A stretch of 63,358 nt of DNA, taken from the NCBI GenBank assembly GCA_021792975.1, contig JAJYTR010000008.1, positions 1 through 63,358 of the forward strand, in the 5' to 3' direction. The notes below the pieces were generated by a model that was not told the DNA's origin, made no database searches, and saw nothing but the letters and a program-made list of their open reading frames with translations. The stretch is from Pseudomonadota bacterium. GTDB lineage: Bacteria > Pseudomonadota > Gammaproteobacteria > Xanthomonadales > Rhodanobacteraceae. Shown in pieces: positions 8,211-56,332 of this stretch. The translations under genes were made by a program, and so were the position numbers. The first letter of the stretch is position 1; each line of letters begins with the position of its first letter.

Positions 8211-10097
8211 ATGGCGACGCGTACAATTGAGTTGGATGGCCGCAGCCTGACTGCGGCCGCGCTGATGACGCTGGCGCAGGGCGACGCCCGCATTGCGCTG
8301 GCGCCAGCCGCCCTGGCCCAGGTGCGGCGGGCGGCGGACTTCCTGTCCGAGCAGGTACGCCGGGGCGAGCCGATCTACGGCGTGACCACCGGCTTTGGCA
8401 GCAATGCGGACAAGCTGCTGGGTGCCCACCGCGCGCGCGACGAGTTGCCGGGCGGCAATCCCGATCCCCGCGCGGGCGGCCTGCCGGAAGAGCTGCAGCA
8501 CAACCTCATCGTGACCCACGCGGTGTGTACGGGCGAGCCGTTCGCACCCGAGGTGGTGCGCGCGATGCTGGTGATCCGCATCAACACGCTGCTGCGCGGC
8601 CATTCCGGCATCCGCGCGGAAACGCTGCAGGCGCTGGCCGAATTGTTCAACCGTGGCGTGGTGCCGGTGATTCCGCAACTGGGCTCGGTCGGCGCCAGTG
8701 GCGACCTCGCGCCGCTCTCGCATCTGGCCATCGTGCTGCTGGGTGGAGGCGAGGCGTTCCACGCAGGCGAACGCCTGCCCGGTGCAACAGCGCTGCGACG
8801 GGCGGGGCTGCAGCCCGTGCGCCTGTCCTACAAGGAGGGCCTGGCGCTCAACAACGGCACGGCGCAGATGCTGGCCTGTGCGGTTCTGGCCTTGGACCGG
8901 CTGCAGCGCCTGGCCACCACCGCCGATCTCGCCGCGGCGATGACGCTGGAGGCTTTCGCCGGCCGTGGCAGCGCCTTCCGCGCGGATGTGCATGCGCTGC
9001 GTCCGCATCCCGGGCAGGTGGCCTGTGCGGCGCATCTGCGCGAACTGCTGGACGGTTCGACGCTGATCGACATTCCCTACCACCTGGTGCCGCGCTTCGC
9101 GACATGGACGGCGCAGGCCTGGCACGAACCCGAAGACCAGGCCGTGCACTTCGACATCGCGTGGGACTGGGTGCCCGCGCACCGGCGTCATGGCCGCGAG
9201 GCGTTCTACACCCGTTTCCTGCCCTTCCGCGGCGGCAAGAAGCACCAGCCGCAGGATGCCTACAGCCTGCGCTGCATCCCGCAGGTGCACGGCGCCGTGC
9301 GTGACGCGCTGGCGCAAGCCGCCCGCGTGCTCGACATCGAACTCAACGCCGTCACCGACAATCCTCTGCTGTTTCCCGATCGTGCCGGCGCGCGCGTGAT
9401 CGAGGACCGGGTGGTCTCGGCCGGCCATTTCCACGGCATGCCGCTGGCGCTGGCCATGAGTTACGTCAAGGCCGCCATCCCCGTACTGGCCTCGATCAGC
9501 GAGCGCCGTATCGCCAAACTGGTGGATGCGGCGACCAATGACGGTCTGCCGGCCTTCCTCGCCGGCAACGAGGACGCCACCGATTCCGGCTTCATGATCG
9601 TGCAGTACACCGCTGCCGCGCTGGTCAACGATCTGGCCAGCAGGGCGCACCCGGCCAGCGTCTATTCCATTCCCACCAGCGCCAATGCCGAGGACCATGT
9701 CTCGATGGGCGCCAACGAGGCGCGCCAGGTGCTGGCGATGTGCGAGCCGCTGGAGCAGGTGCTGGCGCTGGAGCTCTACACCGCTGCGCAGGCGCTGGAC
9801 TACCGCCGCGACATGCTCAACGCTGCGCGCCGACTGGCCCGGCGCGGCGACTGGCGCGTGCTAGCGGCCAAGATCGGCGGCGCCCCCGAGGCCGGGCATC
9901 CGCAACACGCGCAGTTCGAGCAGGAAGTGCGCGCGCTGATGCGGGCCCTGGCCGAGGCGTCCGAATTCCATCCCGGGCCGGCCGTGGCCGAGGCGCTGCA
10001 GCGCATCCGCGCCGAGGTGGCCTTCATGCCGCGCGATCGCGCCATGGACGGGGACATCGCGCGCATGCTGGCCCTGGTGCGGCGTGGCGGGATCTGA
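8211..10097 (+). CDS. Histidine/aromatic ammonia-lyase family protein, extended form
   Basis: A 628-residue member of the MIO-dependent lyases, which eliminate ammonia from His, Phe or Tyr. The MIO-forming Ala162-Ser163-Gly164 lies in GSVGASGDLAPL. Also present are YGVTTGFG, DAYSLRC, the loop NLIVTH (Thr-His where HutH has Ser-His, arguing for histidine) and PTSANAEDHVSM. It is over 100 residues longer than typical HutH (about 510). About 55 extra residues, rich in Trp and His, fall at 284-345 just before DAYSLRC, and there are smaller additions near 65-95 and in the C-terminal part. No hutU, hutI or hutG is nearby, so a plain Hut role is uncertain. Confidence 0.85.
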   Translation: MATRTIELDGRSLTAAALMTLAQGDARIALAPAALAQVRRAADFLSEQVRRGEPIYGVTTGFGSNADKLLGAHRARDELPGGNPDPRAGGLPEELQHNLIVTHAVCTGEPFAPEVVRAMLVIRINTLLRGHSGIRAETLQALAELFNRGVVPVIPQLGSVGASGDLAPLSHLAIVLLGGGEAFHAGERLPGATALRRAGLQPVRLSYKEGLALNNGTAQMLACAVLALDRLQRLATTADLAAAMTLEAFAGRGSAFRADVHALRPHPGQVACAAHLRELLDGSTLIDIPYHLVPRFATWTAQAWHEPEDQAVHFDIAWDWVPAHRRHGREAFYTRFLPFRGGKKHQPQDAYSLRCIPQVHGAVRDALAQAARVLDIELNAVTDNPLLFPDRAGARVIEDRVVSAGHFHGMPLALAMSYVKAAIPVLASISERRIAKLVDAATNDGLPAFLAGNEDATDSGFMIVQYTAAALVNDLASRAHPASVYSIPTSANAEDHVSMGANEARQVLAMCEPLEQVLALELYTAAQALDYRRDMLNAARRLARRGDWRVLAAKIGGAPEAGHPQHAQFEQEVRALMRALAEASEFHPGPAVAEALQRIRAEVAFMPRDRAMDGDIARMLALVRRGGI

Positions 10098-10112: not shown

Positions 10113-10514
10113 TCAGGACGCGCGGTCGGCCGGGTGGTGGATGCCGTCGCGGGTGGGAATCCCGTCCAGCAGGAACGGATTGATGCCCTCCAGGCAGGCC
10201 ACGTTGTAGCCGTACTGGCCGGGCGTGGAGCGGCGCTGGTGGTGGGTGTGGATGCCGCAGTTCGAGCAGAAGTAGTGCCGCGCCGTGCGGGTGTTGAACC
10301 GGTAGATCTGCAGGACATCTTCGCCGCGGACGACGTGCAGTCCGGACAGCGGCACCGAGGCGACGATGGTGCCCCGACGGCGGCAGTACGAGCAGTCGCA
10401 GCGGCGCGGATCGACGATGCCATCAGGCAGGTCGAGCTCGATCGCCACCGCGCCGCAGTGGCAGGAAAGCCGGTGCCGGGGCAGGACCGGGACGCCGCCG
10501 ACGGATCGGATCAT
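10113..10514 (-). CDS. GFA / CENP-V fold zinc-binding protein
   Basis: A 133-residue protein of the GFA family (named after glutathione-dependent formaldehyde-activating enzyme). Zinc-ligand cysteines are in CHCGAV, CDCSYC and CSNCGIHTHH. The substrate cannot be read from sequence; many members are uncharacterised. It is convergent with the ammonia-lyase gene (15-bp gap) and divergent from the TrpR-like gene. I chose the ATG at 10514; an ATG 19 codons upstream is also possible. Confidence 0.8.
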   Translation of the reverse strand: MIRSVGGVPVLPRHRLSCHCGAVAIELDLPDGIVDPRRCDCSYCRRRGTIVASVPLSGLHVVRGEDVLQIYRFNTRTARHYFCSNCGIHTHHQRRSTPGQYGYNVACLEGINPFLLDGIPTRDGIHHPADRAS

Positions 10515-10648
10515 GGGCGCACCTGGGGCCAGGGAGGACCGATTCACGCGCGATGGCGCGTTTCCTGTCAACCGTCACGTGCCGGCACATGGAACCGGCG
10601 GCGTCGCAGCCGCGGGCTTGCATCGGGTGCGGCGTTGCCGTTAGCATC

Positions 10649-10670
10649 ATGTACTAATGCATTAGTACAT
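10649..10670. promoter_or_regulatory. Perfect palindromic operator of the TrpR type upstream of the his operon
   Basis: A 22-bp perfect palindrome with core TGTACTAATGCATTAGTACA ends 11 bp before the ATG of the TrpR-family gene that heads the his operon. Its half sites TGTACTA / TAGTACA and their 6-bp separation are the same as in the idealised E. coli trp operator; only the central six bases differ. It is AT-rich in a very GC-rich region. The natural reading is the binding site of the adjacent TrpR-family protein, giving autoregulation and control of histidine synthesis. Confidence 0.85.
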
Positions 10671-10681
10671 AAGCCTGTGCC

Positions 10682-11062
10682 ATGAAGAGACGATCGCTGG
10701 AACCGCTGCAGCCGCGTGCCCAGGCCGAGGAGGGCCTGTGCCGCGCGCTGCTGTCGATGCGCACGGTGGCGGAGATGCGGGCCCTGCTGCGCGATCTGTG
10801 CACACCGGCCGAGGTCGAGGCCCTGGTGGACCGCTGGTCGGTGGTGCCCTACCTGCTGGACGGCCGGCCTTACCGCGAGATCCACGACCTCACCGCGGTC
10901 AGCATCACCACCATCGGCCGGGTGGCGCGCTATCTCAGTCAGGGCAACGGCGGCTATCTGGCCGCGGCGGCGCGCGCGCAGCATGCACGCAGGCCGCGCC
11001 GCGCGACAGGCGCGGCCGGCGAAGCGCCCAGGCCGCGGCGCGCGGCGGAGGTGCGGACATGA
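10682..11062 (+). CDS. TrpR-family transcriptional repressor (YerC/YecD type), probable his operon regulator
   Basis: A 126-residue protein. Residues about 15-100 match the TrpR/YerC helical domain, including [23 protein letters not shown] and the helix-turn-helix [23 protein letters not shown]. The tail after about 100 is Arg/Ala-rich and looks disordered. Its stop overlaps the hisG start (ATGA), and it is preceded by a Trp-type operator. In Xanthomonadales such genes lead the his operon, so it probably senses histidine; the ligand is inference. No good Shine-Dalgarno precedes the ATG. Confidence 0.9.
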
Positions 11063-11958
11063 AGCCGCGCGACCGCCTGCGCATCGCCGCGCAGAAATCC
11101 GGCCGTCTTGCCGAGCCCTCGCAGGACCTGCTGACGCGCTGCGGGCTGAAGTTCCGGCAGAGCCGCGACCGCCTGTTCTGCTTCGGTGAAACCCTGCCGG
11201 TCGATCTGCTGCTGGTGCGCGACAACGACATCCCCGGGCTCATCGCCGACGGTGTCTGCGATCTCGGCGTGGTGGGACGCAACGTGCTGGGCGAGCAGGG
11301 CCTGACCCTGCAGGCCGCCGGTGACGTGCCCGCGTTCCGCGAACTGCGTGCGCTGGGCTTCGGCCAGTGCCGATTGTCGCTGGCGCTGCCGCAGGAGGCG
11401 GACTACGCCGGTCCGGCACAGTTGCAGGGCCTGCGCATCGCCACCACCTATCCGCAGCTGCTGGGCCAGTGGCTGCGGACGCAGAGGGTCGAGGCGCGGG
11501 TGGTGACCTTGTCCGGGTCGGTGGAGATCGCTCCGCGCCTGGGCACCGCCGATCTCATCTGCGATCTGGTCTCCAGCGGCGCCACGCTGGCGGCCAACCA
11601 ATTGCGCGAGGCGGTGGTGCTGATGGAGAGCGAGGCCGTGCTGGCAGCCGCCGCCGAACCGCCGGCGGACGAGCGCGGCGACCTGATCGAGTTGCTGCTG
11701 CGGCGGATCGACGGCGTGATCCGGGTGCGCGAGTCCAAGCTGCTGCTGCTGCACGCCCCGCGCGCGGCGGTCGAGGCCATCGGCCGGCTGCTGCCGGCGG
11801 ACGCCACCACCACCGTGATGCCCATCGACGGCCATGCCGACCGGGTGGCACTGCAGGCGCTCTGCCACGGCGCGGTGACCTGGCAGCACCTGGAGGACAT
11901 GAAGCGCGCCGGCGCCAGCGCCATGCTGGTGCTGCCGGTGGAGAAGATGCTGGCCTGA
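11059..11958 (+). CDS. hisG: ATP phosphoribosyltransferase HisG (long form)
   Basis: A 299-residue HisG, the first enzyme of histidine synthesis (ATP plus PRPP to phosphoribosyl-ATP). The length and the C-terminal regulatory domain (from about residue 225, with [20 protein letters not shown]) mark the hexameric, histidine-inhibited long form that needs no HisZ. The catalytic part contains [18 protein letters not shown]. Its start codon overlaps the stop of the TrpR-like gene by 4 bp. Pathway entry can therefore be controlled both by feedback and by the repressor. Confidence 0.98.
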
Positions 11959-11970
11959 GCGCGGACGACC

Positions 11971-13278
11971 ATGAACCGTATCGACTGGAACCGACTCGAC
12001 GAAGCCGCGCGGGCCGAGGCGCTGGCGCGTCCGGTGCGCGAGCGCACCGTGGAAGTGCGCCTGGGCGTGGAGCGCATCCTCGCGCAGGTGCGCGCCGATG
12101 GCGACCACGCACTGCGCCTGCTGACCCGCCGCTTCGACGGCTGCGAACTCGATGCGCTGGAGGTCGCCGGGGACGAGTTCGCCGCGGCCGCGGCCGCCGT
12201 CCCTGCGGATCTGCATGCGGCGATCGAGGAGGCGGCCGGGCGCATCGAGGCCTTCCACCGTGCCACCGCGCCGCAGGCGGTGCAGGTGGAGACCGCGCCC
12301 GGCGTGCGCTGCGAGCGCGTGCTGCGACCCATCGCGCGCGTGGGCCTCTATGTGCCGGCCGGCGGTGCGCCGCTGCCCTCGACCGCGCTGATGCTGGGCG
12401 TGCCGGCGCGGCTGGCCGGCTGCGCCGAGGTGGTGATGTGCACGCCCGCACGCGCCGACGGGCGCTGCGATCCCGCGGTGCTGGTGGCGGCACGGCGCTG
12501 CGGCATCGGCCGCGTGTTCAAGCTGGGCGGCGCCCAGGCCATCGCCGCGATGGCCTTCGGCACAGCCGGCGTGCCCCGCTGCGACAAGCTGTTCGGGCCC
12601 GGCAATGCCTGGGTCACCGAGGCCAAGCAGCAGGTCAGCGTGCTGCCCGGCGGCCCGGCCATCGACATGCCGGCCGGCCCTTCCGAGGTGCTGGTGATCG
12701 CCGATGCCACCGCCGATCCCGCGCTGGTGGCTGCCGACCTGCTGGCGCAGGCCGAACACGGTCCGGATTCGCAAGTGCTGCTGGTCTCCCCCGCAGCGGC
12801 GCTGCTCGATGCGGTGGCCGCCGAGGTCGAGCGCCAGTGCCGGATCCTGCCGCGCGCGGACATCGCACGCCGGGCGCTGGCGGGCAGTCGACTCGTCCTG
12901 GTGGCCGATCTCGGCCAGGCGGTCGAAGTCAGCAACCGCTACGCGCCCGAGCACCTGATCCTGCAGGTGGCCGCGCCGCGCGCGCTGCTGGCCGGGGTGC
13001 ACAGCGCCGGTTCGGTGTTTCTGGGTGCCTGGTCGCCCGAGTCGGTGGGGGATTACTGCAGCGGCACCAACCACGTGCTGCCCACCGACGGCCACGCGCG
13101 TGCCTGGAGCGGCGCGTCGGTGGCCAGCTTCCAGAAGCAGATCACCGTGCAGGAGCTGAGCCCCCGGGGTCTGCGCGGCATCGGACCCTGCGCGGTGACG
13201 CTGGCACGGGCCGAGGGCTTGGAAGCGCATGCGCGCGCGGTGACGCTGCGGCTGGCCGCGCTGGAGACCGGTCCATGA
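11971..13278 (+). CDS. hisD: Histidinol dehydrogenase
   Basis: A 435-residue NAD- and zinc-dependent HisD, which oxidises histidinol to histidine in the last two steps. Visible signatures are [26 protein letters not shown], the zinc and catalytic region AEHGPDSQ, the base pair of residues in APEHL, and [18 protein letters not shown]. It follows hisG by 12 bp, and its stop overlaps the hisC start. Confidence 0.99.
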
Positions 13279-14342
13279 ACGTGCTCGATCTGGTGCGGCC
13301 CGAGATCCGCGACTTCGCGCCGTATTCTTCGGCGCGCATGGAGGCCGGCGGCGGCACGGTGCTGCTCAACGCCAACGAGTCGCCCTGGCCGCCGCCGCAG
13401 GATGGCGGGCATGACCTGCACCGCTACCCCGATCCGCAGCCCTTGGCGTTGCTGGATGCGCTAGCCGGTGTCTACGGCGTGCGCCGCGAACAAGTGCTGG
13501 CGGGCCGCGGCAGCGACGAGGCCATCGACCTGCTGACGCGCGCTTTCTGCCGGGCCGGCTGCGACGCCGTGCTGGTGGCGACGCCGACCTTCGGCATGTA
13601 CGCCGTCAGCGCGCGTGTCCAGGGCGCTCGCGTGGTCGAGGTGCCGCTGGACGAAGCTTTCGCGCTCGACCCGCGGGCCCTGCTGGCGGCGGTGTCGCCG
13701 GAAGTGAAGCTGGTTTACCTGTGCTCGCCCAACAATCCCAGCGGCGGGCTGGTGCCCATCGAGATGATCGACGCGCTGACGCGCGCGCTGGCCGGCCGTG
13801 CGCTGGTGGTGGTGGACGAGGCCTATGGCGAGTTCGCGCAATCGGCAAGCGCGAGCACGCTGCTGCAGCGGCACGCCAACCTGGCCGTGCTGCGCACGCT
13901 GTCGAAGGCCTGGGCGCTTGCCGGTGCGCGCGTCGGCGCATTGCTCGCCGCGCCCGAGGTGATCGCGCTGCTGCGCCGGATCATGCCGCCCTATCCGCTG
14001 CCCACGCCCAGCGTACGGGCGGCGCTGAGGGCGCTGGATGCCGATGGCCGCGCGCTGATGGCGAAGCGCGTCGCGGCCACGCTGGCCGAGCGGGCACGGG
14101 TGGCCGAGCGTCTGCGGCAGACGCCGGGCGTGCGCCGCGTGCTGCCTTCGCGCGCCAATTTCCTGGCGTTCCAGATCGATTCCGCGGCGGCGGTGCATGC
14201 GCGTCTGACCGCGCAGGGCGTGTTGCTGCGCGATATCGGCCGCTATCGCGGTCTGTCCGGTTTTCTGCGGCTCAGCGTGGGCCTGCCGCAGGAAAACGAC
14301 CGCGCGCTGGAACTGCTGGCCCCCGGCGGAGCGGCGGCATGA
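13275..14342 (+). CDS. hisC: Histidinol-phosphate aminotransferase
   Basis: A 355-residue fold-type I PLP enzyme that transaminates imidazole acetol phosphate with glutamate. The substrate segment [30 protein letters not shown] and the PLP lysine in [14 protein letters not shown] are present. The start is ATG 13275 in the ATGA overlap with hisD, and the stop overlaps hisB in the same way. Confidence 0.98.
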
Positions 14343-15472
14343 GCGCGCGCAAGCTGCTGTTCGTCGATCGTGATGGCTGCCTGATCGAGGAGCCCGCCGA
14401 TGAACAGGTGGATTGTTACGAGAAGCTGGCGTTGATGCCCGGGGTGATCACGGCCCTGCAGCGCATCGTTGCCGCCGGCTACGAACTGGTGATGGTGAGC
14501 AACCAGGATGGGCTGGGGACGCCCGCGTTTCCCGAGGCCGCCTTCGCGGGACCGCAGCGGCTGCTGCTGCAGGTGTTCGAGTCGCAGGGCATCCGGTTCC
14601 GCGAGGTGCTGGTCGACCGCAGTTTCGCGCACGAGGGGCGTGACACCCGCAAGCCCGGCGTGGGGCTGGCCCGCCATTACCTGGCCGACGATGGCTGGAG
14701 CCGCGCCGCCTCGGCCATGGTCGGTGACCGCGAGACCGACATGCAGTTCGCCGCCAATCTGGGCGTGCGCGGCCTGCGTGTCGGGCCGCAGGGGCTGTCC
14801 TGGGCCGAGGTCGCGCACCGCCTCTGCGACGCCCCGCGGAGGGCCGAGCTGGAGCGCGCCACGCGCGAGACGCGCATCCGCGTGCGCGTGGACCTGGACC
14901 GCGAGGCCACGCCCGAGGTGCGCACCGGCCTGGGCTATTTCGACCACATGCTGGAGCAGTTGGGCAAGCACGGCGGCTTCGCGCTCGATCTGCAGGCGCG
15001 CGGCGATCTCGAGATCGACGAGCACCACACCGTCGAGGACTGCGCGCTGGCGCTGGGCCAGGCGCTGCGCCAGGCGCTGAGCGACAAGCGCGGCATCGGC
15101 CGCTACGGTGATGCCGAGGTCGCGGCGGATGCGGCCGACGCCGCGCCGGCCGCCGGGGCGGATGCGGCGGTGCGCGTGCGCCTGCCGATGGACGAGAGCC
15201 GGTGCAGTGCGCTGCTGGACCTCTCCGGCAGGCCCTACTTCGTCTTCGACGGCCGGTTCCCGCGCGAGCGCGTGGGCGACCTGCCCACCGAGCTGGTGCC
15301 GCATTTCTTCCGTTCGTTGTGCGACAGCCTGGGCGCCAACCTGCACCTGGAAGTGCGCGGCGGGAACGCGCACCACATGGCCGAAGCCTGCTTCAAGGCC
15401 GTGGCGCGCGCGCTGCGCCAGGCGATCCGGCGCGAAGGCAGCGATCTGCCCAGCACCAAAGGTGCGCTCTGA
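14339..15472 (+). CDS. hisB: Bifunctional histidinol-phosphatase / imidazoleglycerol-phosphate dehydratase
   Basis: A 377-residue fusion. Residues 1-170 are the HAD phosphatase (DRDG with Asp10 and Asp12, VSNQDG, RKPGVGL, GDRETD). Residues about 178-377 are the IGP dehydratase, with metal-binding [21 protein letters not shown] and [13 protein letters not shown]. Two points differ from E. coli HisB: the zinc-cysteine loop of the phosphatase is replaced by [12 protein letters not shown], and about 22 Ala/Asp-rich residues (258-279) interrupt the dehydratase before LPMDE. I recall that Xanthomonas HisB also lacks the loop and has an insert at the same place. Confidence 0.97.
15110..15178 (+). 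other. Low-complexity Ala/Asp-rich insertion inside hisB
   Basis: This stretch encodes about 22 residues made almost only of Ala, Asp, Gly, Val and Pro between the dehydratase segments GIGRYG and LPMDE. The frame stays open and both flanks are well conserved, so this is an in-frame surface-loop expansion and not a frameshift. Confidence 0.7.
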
Positions 15473-16062
15473 TGGCCCTCGTGCTGGTCGACGCCGGCGG
15501 CACCAACATCGGCTCGGTGCGCTACGCGCTGCAGCGATTGGGTGTGGACGCGGAACTCAGCGCCGACGCGGCGGCGATCCGCGCCGCGGACAAGGTGATC
15601 CTGCCCGGCGTGGGCGCGGCTGGTCCGGGCATGGCGCGCTTGCGCGGGCTGGGCCTGGTGGAGGTGGTGCGCAGCCTCACTCAGCCGGTACTGGGCGTAT
15701 GCCTGGGCATGCAACTGCTGTGCGCGCATTCGGAGGAGGGCGACACCGACTGTCTCGGCGTGATTCCCGCCGTGGTGCGCCGTTTCGCCGAGGTGCCCGG
15801 GTTGCGCGTGCCGCAGATGGGCTGGAACCGCCTGCAGGCGGTTCGCGAGCATGTGCTGCTGGCCGGGCTGGGCGCGGATGACCGGGCCTATTTCGTGCAC
15901 GGCTATGCGGTGCCCGTGGGTGGCTACACCCTGGCCACGGCCGACTACGGTGGGCCGTTCTCGGCGGTGGTCGCGCGCGGCAATTTCCACGGCATGCAGT
16001 TCCACCCCGAGCGCTCGGCCGGTGTCGGTGCCAGGCTGCTGAAGAACTTCCTCGAGCTATGA
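15472..16062 (+). CDS. hisH: Imidazole glycerol phosphate synthase, glutaminase subunit
   Basis: A 196-residue class I glutamine amidotransferase that delivers ammonia to HisF. The nucleophilic cysteine is in LGVCLGMQLL, the His/Glu pair in MQFHPERS, and the oxyanion region in PGVGAAGPGM. The ATG at 15472 shares one base with the hisB stop. Confidence 0.98.
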   Translation: MALVLVDAGGTNIGSVRYALQRLGVDAELSADAAAIRAADKVILPGVGAAGPGMARLRGLGLVEVVRSLTQPVLGVCLGMQLLCAHSEEGDTDCLGVIPAVVRRFAEVPGLRVPQMGWNRLQAVREHVLLAGLGADDRAYFVHGYAVPVGGYTLATADYGGPFSAVVARGNFHGMQFHPERSAGVGARLLKNFLEL

Positions 16063-16787
16063 GCTTCACCGTCATCCCCGCCATCGACCTGCGCGGCGGC
16101 AAGGTCGTGCGCCTGCAGCAGGGCGACTACGAACGCCAGGCCACCTATGGCGACGATCCGCGCGCCTTCGTCGCACGCTACGCGCAGGCAGGTGCTGCCT
16201 GGCTGCACGTGGTTGACCTGGACGGCGCGCGTTCCGGCGGCCTGGGGAACCTCAGGACGATCGAGGCGATCGCCCGGGACGGCCTGCGGATCCAGGCCGG
16301 CGGCGGCGTGCGCGGCGAGGACGATCTGCGTCGCCTGTTCAGCGCCGGCGTGAGCCGCGCGGTGGTGGGCAGCCTGGCGGTCCGCGAACCGGACGCCGTT
16401 GCGGGCTGGCTGGCCGGCTACGGCAGCGAGTGCCTGACGATCGCGCTGGACACACGTCGCAGCGACGGTTGCTGGACCCTGCCGAGCGCCGGCTGGACCG
16501 AGACCGAGGCGCGCACGCTGGACGAGCTGGCGCCCTGGTATGCCGCCCGCGGTGCGCGCCACCTGCTGTGCACCGACATCGAGCGCGACGGCATGCTGGC
16601 CGGCTTCAACCTCGGTCTGTACCGCCATCTGGCCGAGATGGCACCGACGATGGCCGTGCAGGCCTCCGGCGGCGTGCGCGACCTGGACGACATCCGCGGC
16701 GCGCGTGCCGCCGGAGCCGCCGCCGTGATCCTGGGCCGCGCGCTGCTCGAAGGCCGCTTCACCGTCGAGGAGGCGCTGGCATGTTGA
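16059..16787 (+). CDS. hisA: ProFAR isomerase HisA
   Basis: A 242-residue (beta/alpha)8 barrel isomerase converting ProFAR to PRFAR. It has [19 protein letters not shown] at the start, the catalytic Asp in the first strand, and the phosphate-binding segments QAGGGVR and [12 protein letters not shown]. It overlaps hisH by 4 bp, and its end overlaps hisF by 7 bp. Confidence 0.98.
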
Positions 16788-17551
16788 GCCGCCGCATCAT
16801 TCCGTGTCTGGACGTGCGCAAGGGGCGAGTGGTCAAAGGCGTGCGCTTCCGCGATCACGTTGACATGGGCGACATCGTCGAACGGGCGCGGCACTATCGC
16901 GACGCCGGCGCCGATGAGCTGGTGTTCTACGATATCGGCGCCAGCCCTGAGGGGCGCCGCGTCGATGTCGCCTGGGTCGAGCGCGTGGCGCGCGAGCTGG
17001 ATATTCCGTTCTGCGTCGCCGGCGGCATCCGCAGCGTCGAGGACGCACGCGCGGTGCTGTACGCCGGCGCCGACAAGATCTCGGTGAATTCGCCGGCGCT
17101 GGCGCGGCCGGCGCTGATCGACGAACTGGCCGAGGCCTTCGGTGTGCAGTGCGTGGTGGTGGGCGTCGACAGCCTGCGCGACGCTGACGGCGAGTGGCGC
17201 GTGCGCCAGTACACCGGCGATCCCTCCAGGACCCAGGTGCTGGCGCGCCGCACCCTGGACTGGATCGCCGAGGCCCAGCGTCGCGGCGCCGGCGAGATCG
17301 TGCTCAACTGCATGGGCAGCGACGGCGTGCGTCAGGGCTACGACCTGGAACAACTCGCCGCGGCGCGTGCGATCTGCAGCGTGCCGTTGGTCGCCTCCGG
17401 CGGCGCGGGCACGCCGGAGCACTTCCGCGACGCTTTCCTGCAGGTCGACGCGGACGCCGCGCTGGCCGCCAGCGTATTCCACTCCGGCGCCATCGCCATC
17501 CCCGAACTCAAGCGCTACCTGCGCGCGCAGGGCGTGATCATCCGGCAATAG
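16781..17551 (+). CDS. hisF: Imidazole glycerol phosphate synthase, cyclase subunit
   Basis: A 256-residue barrel cyclase that forms IGP and AICAR with ammonia from HisH. It begins [21 protein letters not shown] and contains [28 protein letters not shown] and [13 protein letters not shown]. The catalytic Asp in CLDV and the Asp of the VGVDS segment are kept. AICAR output links this operon to purine synthesis. Confidence 0.98.
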
Positions 17552-17570: not shown

Positions 17571-18227
17571 ATGAACGCCACCGACGCACTCGAACGACTC
17601 GACTGGGCCAAGGGCAACGGCCTGCTTCCCGCCATCGTGCAGCACTGGCTGAGCGGCGAGGTGCTGATGCTGGGCTACATGAACGCCGAGGCGCTGGCGC
17701 AGACGCGGCGCAGCGGCCAGATTACCTTCTGGAGCCGCAGCAAGGGCCGCCTGTGGACCAAGGGCGAGACTTCGGGCCACGTGCTGGCATTGAAGTCGAT
17801 CCGTGCCGACTGCGACGCCGACAGCCTGCTGCTGCTGGCCGATCCGGTCGGCCCGACCTGTCATCGAGGGACCGACAGCTGCTTCGGCGACGCCGCGGCG
17901 CCGGCGCTGGCCTTCCTCGGGCGGCTCGATGCCCTGGTCGCGCGGCGCGAACGCGAGCGGCCGGCCGACAGTTACACCACGTGCCTGTTCGAGGACGGCA
18001 TCCGCCGCATCGCGCAGAAGGTGGGCGAGGAGGGCGTGGAAACCGCGCTGGCCGCGGTAGCACAGGACGACGACGCGCTGCTGGGCGAGGCCGCCGATCT
18101 GCTCTATCACCTGATCGTGCTGCTGCGTGCGCGCGGTTTAGGTCTGCAAGCCGCTGTCGCGGTACTGGCGGCGCGTCACGCGAAGGGGCAAGCGGCTATT
18201 CCGGATGGGCCGGGGGAAAGGCCATGA
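17571..18227 (+). CDS. hisI: Bifunctional phosphoribosyl-AMP cyclohydrolase / phosphoribosyl-ATP pyrophosphatase
   Basis: A 218-residue HisIE fusion. The N-terminal cyclohydrolase has the zinc and metal ligands in DCDADSLL, TCHRGTDSCF and the segment TFWSRSKGRLWTKGETSGH. The C-terminal pyrophosphatase starts near residue 127 with YTTCLFEDGIRRIAQKVGEEGVETALAA. It follows hisF by 19 bp and ends in an ATGA overlap with the DHFR-like gene. Confidence 0.97.
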   Translation: MNATDALERLDWAKGNGLLPAIVQHWLSGEVLMLGYMNAEALAQTRRSGQITFWSRSKGRLWTKGETSGHVLALKSIRADCDADSLLLLADPVGPTCHRGTDSCFGDAAAPALAFLGRLDALVARRERERPADSYTTCLFEDGIRRIAQKVGEEGVETALAAVAQDDDALLGEAADLLYHLIVLLRARGLGLQAAVAVLAARHAKGQAAIPDGPGERP

Positions 18228-56308: not shown

Positions 56309-56332
56309 GGCGCCGGCCGGCCGGCCGGCGCC
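56309..56332. repeat. 24-bp GC-only palindrome of CCGG units
   Basis: A perfect palindrome built of tandem CCGG units, in the 275-bp gap between the divergent glycosyltransferase and quinone oxidoreductase genes. It is about 67 bp before the oxidoreductase start. There is no T tract, so it is not a terminator. The rest of the gap (56124-56398) shows nothing recognisable. Confidence 0.4.

Follow-up and report, generated by a model that had tools for sequence, protein, structure and literature searches.

Two described systems stand closest to the one considered here, TrpR of E. coli and HisR. The idealised trp operator carries the arms TGTACTA and TAGTACA around the centre GTTAAC, and TrpR binds in tandem with a register of 8 bp. 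According to the available part of a review, TrpR occupies some of its operators as tandem dimers (PMC8745587), and PDB entry 1trr is a tandem TrpR complex. As for HisR, the available passages of a study published in 2022 (PMC9413887) give that name to the product of yerC of B. subtilis, make use of 3g1c as a HisR structure, and report that HisR of R. gnavus, the only one for which they show this, binds its own site with histidine. The same passages place HisR, with a TrpR-like motif, at the head of his operons in Xanthomonadales, call the proteobacterial regulation local, and mention that control of his in Xanthomonas oryzae has been linked to a TrpR-like protein, whose mechanism, sites, and effectors they describe as unstudied. 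The remark in the first-pass annotation that HisR-type regulators are predicted in Xanthomonadales was thus already in print. A search of the literature turned up no binding data for any proteobacterial HisR. The arrangement of HisR and his operon set out below is of a kind already described, and it is well confirmed here.

The window (the whole stretch of 63,358 nucleotides that was analysed) carries hisR as the first gene of a hisGDCBHAFIE operon (Table 1), a genomic link to histidine biosynthesis. Overlaps join hisR to hisG, hisD to hisC, hisC to hisB, hisB to hisH, hisH to hisA, and hisA to hisF; as had been stated, the stop codon of the repressor gene (TGA, 11060-11062) runs into the start of hisG (ATG at 11059). 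The operator lies between divergent genes, the upstream one (10113-10571, on the opposite strand) encoding a GFA-like protein. Also near the operon, directly after hisS, is a gene (8211-10097) for a 628-aa histidine-ammonia-lyase-like protein (PF00221), which scores above the cut-off of NF006871 and below that of hutH (TIGR01225); it was matched in two stretches and may hold an insertion after residue 286.

Table 1. Features of the hisR-his locus (positions within the window)
Feature	Position	Strand	Basis or remark
Proposed -35 of the hisR-his promoter, TTGCAT	10618..10623	+	Sequence and relatives; weak
Proposed -10, TAGCAT, 18 bp after the -35	10642..10647	+	Inferred from sequence
Left outer 8-bp half-site position, TAGCATCA	10642..10649	+	Degenerate in this genome
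HisR operator (predicted), ATGTACTAATGCATTAGTACAT	10649..10670	.	Perfect palindrome; 20-bp core 10650-10669
Right outer 8-bp half-site position	10670..10677	-	Degenerate in this genome
hisR, TrpR-fold repressor of HisR/YerC type, 126 aa	10682..11062	+	PF01371, 71.2 bits; TIGR02531, 47.7 bits
hisG	11059..11958	+	TIGR00070, 169.1 bits
hisD	11971..13278	+	TIGR00069
hisC	13275..14342	+	TIGR01141
hisB (bifunctional)	14339..15472	+	NF003937
hisH	15472..16062	+	TIGR01855
hisA	16059..16787	+	TIGR00007, 223.2 bits, just below cut-off 228.95; operon position
hisF	16781..17551	+	TIGR00735
hisIE	17571..18227	+	NF002747

The palindrome is as first described, to be read directly in the sequence: 22 bp without a mismatch, arms TGTACTA and TAGTACA, a 6-bp centre ATGCAT, and 11 bp between its end and the ATG of hisR. 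Its length alone is not significant, as 25 of 200 dinucleotide shuffles of the window held a perfect palindrome of at least 22 bp. A chance palindrome was dismissed through conservation; it is position and conservation, not length, that raise this one above chance. (A GC-rich perfect palindrome of 24 bp, longer than the operator, lies at 56309-56332 of the window.) In its own genome (2.28 Mb, 76% complete), the arm pattern is matched with fewer than three mismatches only at the his operator; one further match appears at three mismatches, and the reversed control pattern gave seven at up to three.

A tryptophan sensor rewired to histidine synthesis, as initially proposed, is not what the protein resembles. 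It scores 47.7 bits against the NCBIfam model for YerC/YecD (TIGR02531, cut-off 42.2) and 27.1 bits against the model for TrpR (TIGR01321), far below that cut-off of 67.25, and no TrpR reaching cut-off turned up in the 298 genomes searched across the order. A profile of 12 sequences, the window's included, retrieved 3frw, 3g1c, and 3kor from the PDB with E-values no worse than 2.4e-16, whereas the value for E. coli TrpR was about 0.009. The AlphaFold model used, made from 25 sequences (mean pLDDT 78.0), matches 3frw and 3g1c ahead of TrpR; it superseded a poor model from the single sequence (pLDDT 62.4). To judge by these scores and matches, the protein is HisR, of the YerC/YecD type, and not TrpR. 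The half-site had also been called ancestral, a description that finds no support, as nothing in the analysis polarises HisR against TrpR.

Seven residues (T41, R51, T76, T77, G79, R80, and V81) are invariant in 158 HisR proteins, the window's included. T41 and R51 stand at what we take to be the places of T44 and R54 of TrpR, and R80 at that of R84. These residues, with a fold and a half-site core common to both proteins, are what might be said for a tryptophan-responsive TrpR recruited to the his operon as a form of cross-pathway control. Such a recruitment is nonetheless very improbable, given the low score with the TrpR model, the HisR-like nature of the closest solved structures (3frw and 3g1c), and a genome whose single good site is at his. 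Val81, which aligns with Gly85 of TrpR and is Val in 158 of 158, should fill the indole pocket. In the available part of the review, a change to Gly at the ligand's place is said, citing work on glycine 85, to have created the tryptophan site (PMC8745587); with valine in this position, tryptophan would therefore be an unlikely ligand of HisR here.

PF01371, represented by one gene in the window's genome, is found above cut-off in 268 of the 298 genomes of the order, and of the 127 genomes in the window's family, 119 have a match to its HisR. Among the best 80 of 576 matches, the named relatives include Dyella, Rhodanobacter, Frateuria, Dokdonella, Rudaea, and Oleiagrimonas, which makes Rhodanobacteraceae the probable family of the window; the nearest named record is the MAG Lysobacteraceae bacterium REEB27 (82%). 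Among the genomes lacking any PF01371 match, 20 are listed and nine more are not; family f9 alone accounts for 17 of the 20.

The search for the 20-bp core that had been recommended was run, with the best site of the window's own genome at his. Of 161 distinct loci, counting the window, 160 carry directly in front of hisR a site that agrees with 10 or more of the 14 arm bases; loci were taken as distinct if their 80-base neighbourhoods differed, which lets close relatives count separately. The sole locus without an operator (L168) begins at the end of a contig. In an overlapping set, the operator precedes hisR in 80 of 80 named loci. The loci were picked for spread over genera from listed places rather than from all 268 genomes with PF01371, and relatedness among genomes inflates all counts. 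At L102 (G318:C2:1275519-1282364), from a genome of the window's genus, hisR-hisG occurs twice at a distance of about 3 kb, with an operator before each hisR; the first hisG is shorter by eye (about 220 aa), and the contamination of the genome is given as 3%.

Genome-wide, TGTANTARYRYRYTANTACA, with up to one mismatch allowed, was matched in 243 of the 298 genomes, giving 262 forward matches against 14 for the reversed control; 225 of these genomes have exactly one match and 18 have more. Some genomes with HisR lack a one-mismatch site, and G166, G182, G196, and G284 match at two mismatches. A match to the motif does not by itself prove HisR, since a genome of family f9 without a PF01371 match (G104, locus L173) carries an AT-rich array, periodic at 8 bp and similar to a HisR operator, before a gene for a GntR-type-like regulator; at two mismatches that genome gives seven matches against six for the control.

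What precedes the operon is, then, a 20-bp palindromic operator with a consensus specific to the lineage, as expected of HisR. Columns 3, 7, 14, 15, and 18 are invariant over the 160 loci, and within the core variation is greatest at positions 5 and 16, the trp-like C5 with G16 occurring in 13 of 160 and in 10 of the 80 named loci. The phrase 'near-ideal trp operator' holds for the arms in this genome and is overstated beyond it, as positions 5 and 16 vary in relatives; going by these columns, the likeness is genuine in this genome, though in part coincidental, at a position free to vary. Nor can it be upheld, as a statement of specificity, that only the centre has changed. Positions 5 and 16 vary most, and A7 and T14, variable in the published TrpR consensus TGTAcTnGTnnACnAgTACA (PMC9413887), are kept in 160 of 160. 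Fold, half-site core GTAnT, and operator length (20 bp) are common to HisR and E. coli TrpR (TIGR01321; PDB 1tro, 1trr). At position 5, however, HisR operators accept any of T, C, and A, with G in just one of 160, and at positions 8-9/12-13 they prefer A-C/G-T, as opposed to G-T/A-C in the TrpR consensus. The Firmicute HisR operators, cacTTTAnnnnnnTAAAgtg as given in the available passages of PMC9413887, are likewise 20-bp palindromes before his genes and belong to the same protein family, but they differ from the window's in their half-sites.

Positions 8-13 of the operator read R-Y-R-Y-R-Y in 152 of 160 cases when sites are registered by their arms alone (154 if two sites are re-registered by the RY consensus) and in 79 of 80 named loci. 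When the half-site profile was slid along both strands, maxima fell at multiples of 8 bp, with weaker shoulders within the core where the shift was 10-11 bp. Outside the core, a gentler profile scored -2.45 in columns -8 to -1 (z 11.5) and 1.11 in columns 21 to 28 (z 14.2), against a background of 161 shifts with mean -17.7, sd 1.3, and maximum -12.1. The alternation of the centre follows from its being overlapped by the half-sites shifted 8 bp, and the central hexamer, conserved in this pattern, is constrained rather than neutral spacing. The question left by the first-pass annotation, what the central bases specify, is thereby answered in part, by the R-Y rule and the lattice. The lattice of HisR shares its 8-bp tandem register with the E. 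coli TrpR operator, from which the binding of neighbouring HisR dimers may be inferred. The half-sites at an 8-bp repeat are a property of the order and are weak in the window, where the core is perfect and the combined score of the outer half-sites is the fifth lowest of 160, so tandem binding may fail to apply to this genome. Several members of its genus, not all, also lean to weak flanks. A trade-off between core and flanks was sought by correlation over the operators, and none appeared (rho 0.03, p 0.67).

Perhaps the 8-bp periodicity merely reflects a -10 element and a start codon that overlap the operator. In many loci the TAA of the left flank, taken together with TGT, would pass for a -10 hexamer, in 56 the right flank overlaps the start codon, and in the second group of sites, linked to gyrB (described below), the left outer half-site scores -9.9, against -9.5 at a shift of -14. 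This explanation carries some weight and is still unlikely. The register is kept where the right flank is non-coding (columns 21-28 score 1.34 in 93 loci, compared with the background mean given above); the right flank of the gyrB-linked sites scores -3.6 as against -12 to -19 at the other shifts from 1 to 20; and those sites have the alternating centre without exception. Tandem binding is the preferred reading of the lattice.

The position of the promoter can be approached through the distance between operator and start codon. A scan for consensus promoters found none at the window locus. Of the 56 loci with a gap of 2-3 bp, 32 have TTG at -38, and T, A, and T are found at -15, -14, and -13 in 34, 34, and 31, respectively, with a spacer of 17 bp, a placement that would set the start of transcription at the operator's edge. 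The window's TTGCAT-18-TAGCAT resembles, as far as its letters go, this type of promoter. In the class with a gap of 10-12 bp, TTG is found at -32 in 8 of 25 loci. Two further classes of 30 loci each have TTG at -27 or -26 in 12, which together with TAATGT at -3 to +3 would place the operator over the -10; in one 30-locus class TTG is commoner at -9 (13 of 30), fitting no promoter proposed.

In 53 of 160 loci (e.g., L043, L049, and L051) only 2 bp separate the operator from the nearest in-frame start codon of hisR, a gap with no space for a ribosome-binding site; such loci possibly have very short or unusual leaders. This crowding, and the location of the palindrome inside the presumed 5' leader, might suggest that what is conserved is a hairpin of leader RNA, controlling translation or attenuation, and not a DNA operator. 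The idea is scarcely credible. A perfect palindrome is present in only 7 of 160 loci, positions 5 and 16 pair in just 97 of 160 even if G-U is allowed, the folds predicted for the two loci tested, the window (z -0.20) and L043 (z 1.81), are no better than those of shuffles, and Rfam has no match near gathering score. The palindrome is better taken as a DNA operator, one that may have a side effect on translation.

The model that best accommodates these observations, with a probability of roughly 0.88, is that HisR autoregulates hisR-hisGDCBHAFIE from this operator and its lattice, most likely with histidine as co-repressor and probably as tandem dimers. According to the model, a HisR dimer, most likely loaded with histidine, would sit on the palindrome at the start of transcription and block initiation of the operon; as histidine falls, HisR would release the operator. 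HisR would probably also bind as neighbouring dimers along the 8-bp lattice, and in this genome, with its perfect core and weak outer half-sites, one dimer may suffice. The role given to histidine is transferred by analogy from the distant HisR of Firmicutes. Whatever the details, a TrpR-fold regulator with an operator of its own probably represses the his operon.

A second operator of the same type is found in part of the family. Of 11 extra sites, 10 lie between gyrB and a gene for a TPR protein with a signal-like start; 10 of the 18 genomes with more than one match have one at this place (G092, G132, and G201 fall outside the set covered). A further match in G247 (L198) is away from gyrB-TPR, those in G141, G219, and G010 are elsewhere by eye, and that in G063 lies across the hisR operator at an offset of 8 bp. 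At L193, the TPR gene is followed by tonB, an ExbB/TolQ-like gene, and two ExbD/TolR-like genes (the second recognised by eye).

The second operator was present at 36 of 90 gyrB loci of Rhodanobacteraceae (L193:5001-5020 and 35 among L202-L291), the 90 being the 30 best matches plus 60 chosen from the 125 genomes of the family that match the TPR protein, with a score threshold of 4 set after the scores were seen to be bimodal. It occurs in all 25 examined members of genera g5, g14, g3, g90, g92, g22, and g16, in 8 of 9 of g7, and in 3 of 8 of g10; it was found in no member of 17 other genera, including the window's (0 of 6 examined), the window's own genome (L279) among these. The site lies 45-95 bp past the gyrB stop in 34 of 36 loci (242 and 518 bp in the other two); by eye, many of 16 aligned loci have it directly behind what seems to be a terminator of gyrB. 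From the site to the TPR start the distance is about 208-300 bp in 35 loci (L223 left out). The centre of the site is RYRYRY in 36 of 36 cases picked by arms alone, compared with 1 of 54 best arm matches in the remaining loci; of the outer half-sites, only the right stands out. A conserved stretch, possibly the TPR promoter, lies well downstream, which makes uncertain what transcript would be regulated. A search of Rfam with the gyrB-TPR gap gave no match near gathering score.

A link between HisR and tonB may make sense in the light of the HutC regulon of other lineages, in which TonB-dependent receptors for histidine uptake have been predicted (HisR does not figure in the available part of that work, PMC5343134). 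Neither the lattice nor the centre rule is described in the available passages of PMC9413887, and the word TonB is absent from its text; no lattice or gyrB-tonB site for HisR was reported in the titles and opening parts of abstracts searched, supplements, subscription papers, and RegPrecise aside. One might propose a wider scheme, for and against which the odds seem about even. HisR of Xanthomonadales would occupy its lattice as tandem dimers, with the R-Y centre as the code that sets its specificity apart from that of TrpR, and the branch of Dyella, Frateuria, and Rhodanobacter would have gained a second operator at gyrB/TPR-tonB-exbB-exbD, coupling histidine status to TonB-dependent uptake, or else to some unannotated small RNA in the gap between gyrB and the TPR gene.

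TrpR is a textbook repressor, and HisR belongs to a sister family with a nearly identical operator, a probably different ligand, and a different pathway. With the centre rule and the 8-bp lattice known, a few oligonucleotides would be enough to test the specificity of the operator. The tonB-linked site would be, in the literature searched, the first target of a proteobacterial HisR beyond histidine metabolism. HisR in genomes with no TrpR above cut-off amounts to a natural experiment in the change of effector and operator within a single fold.
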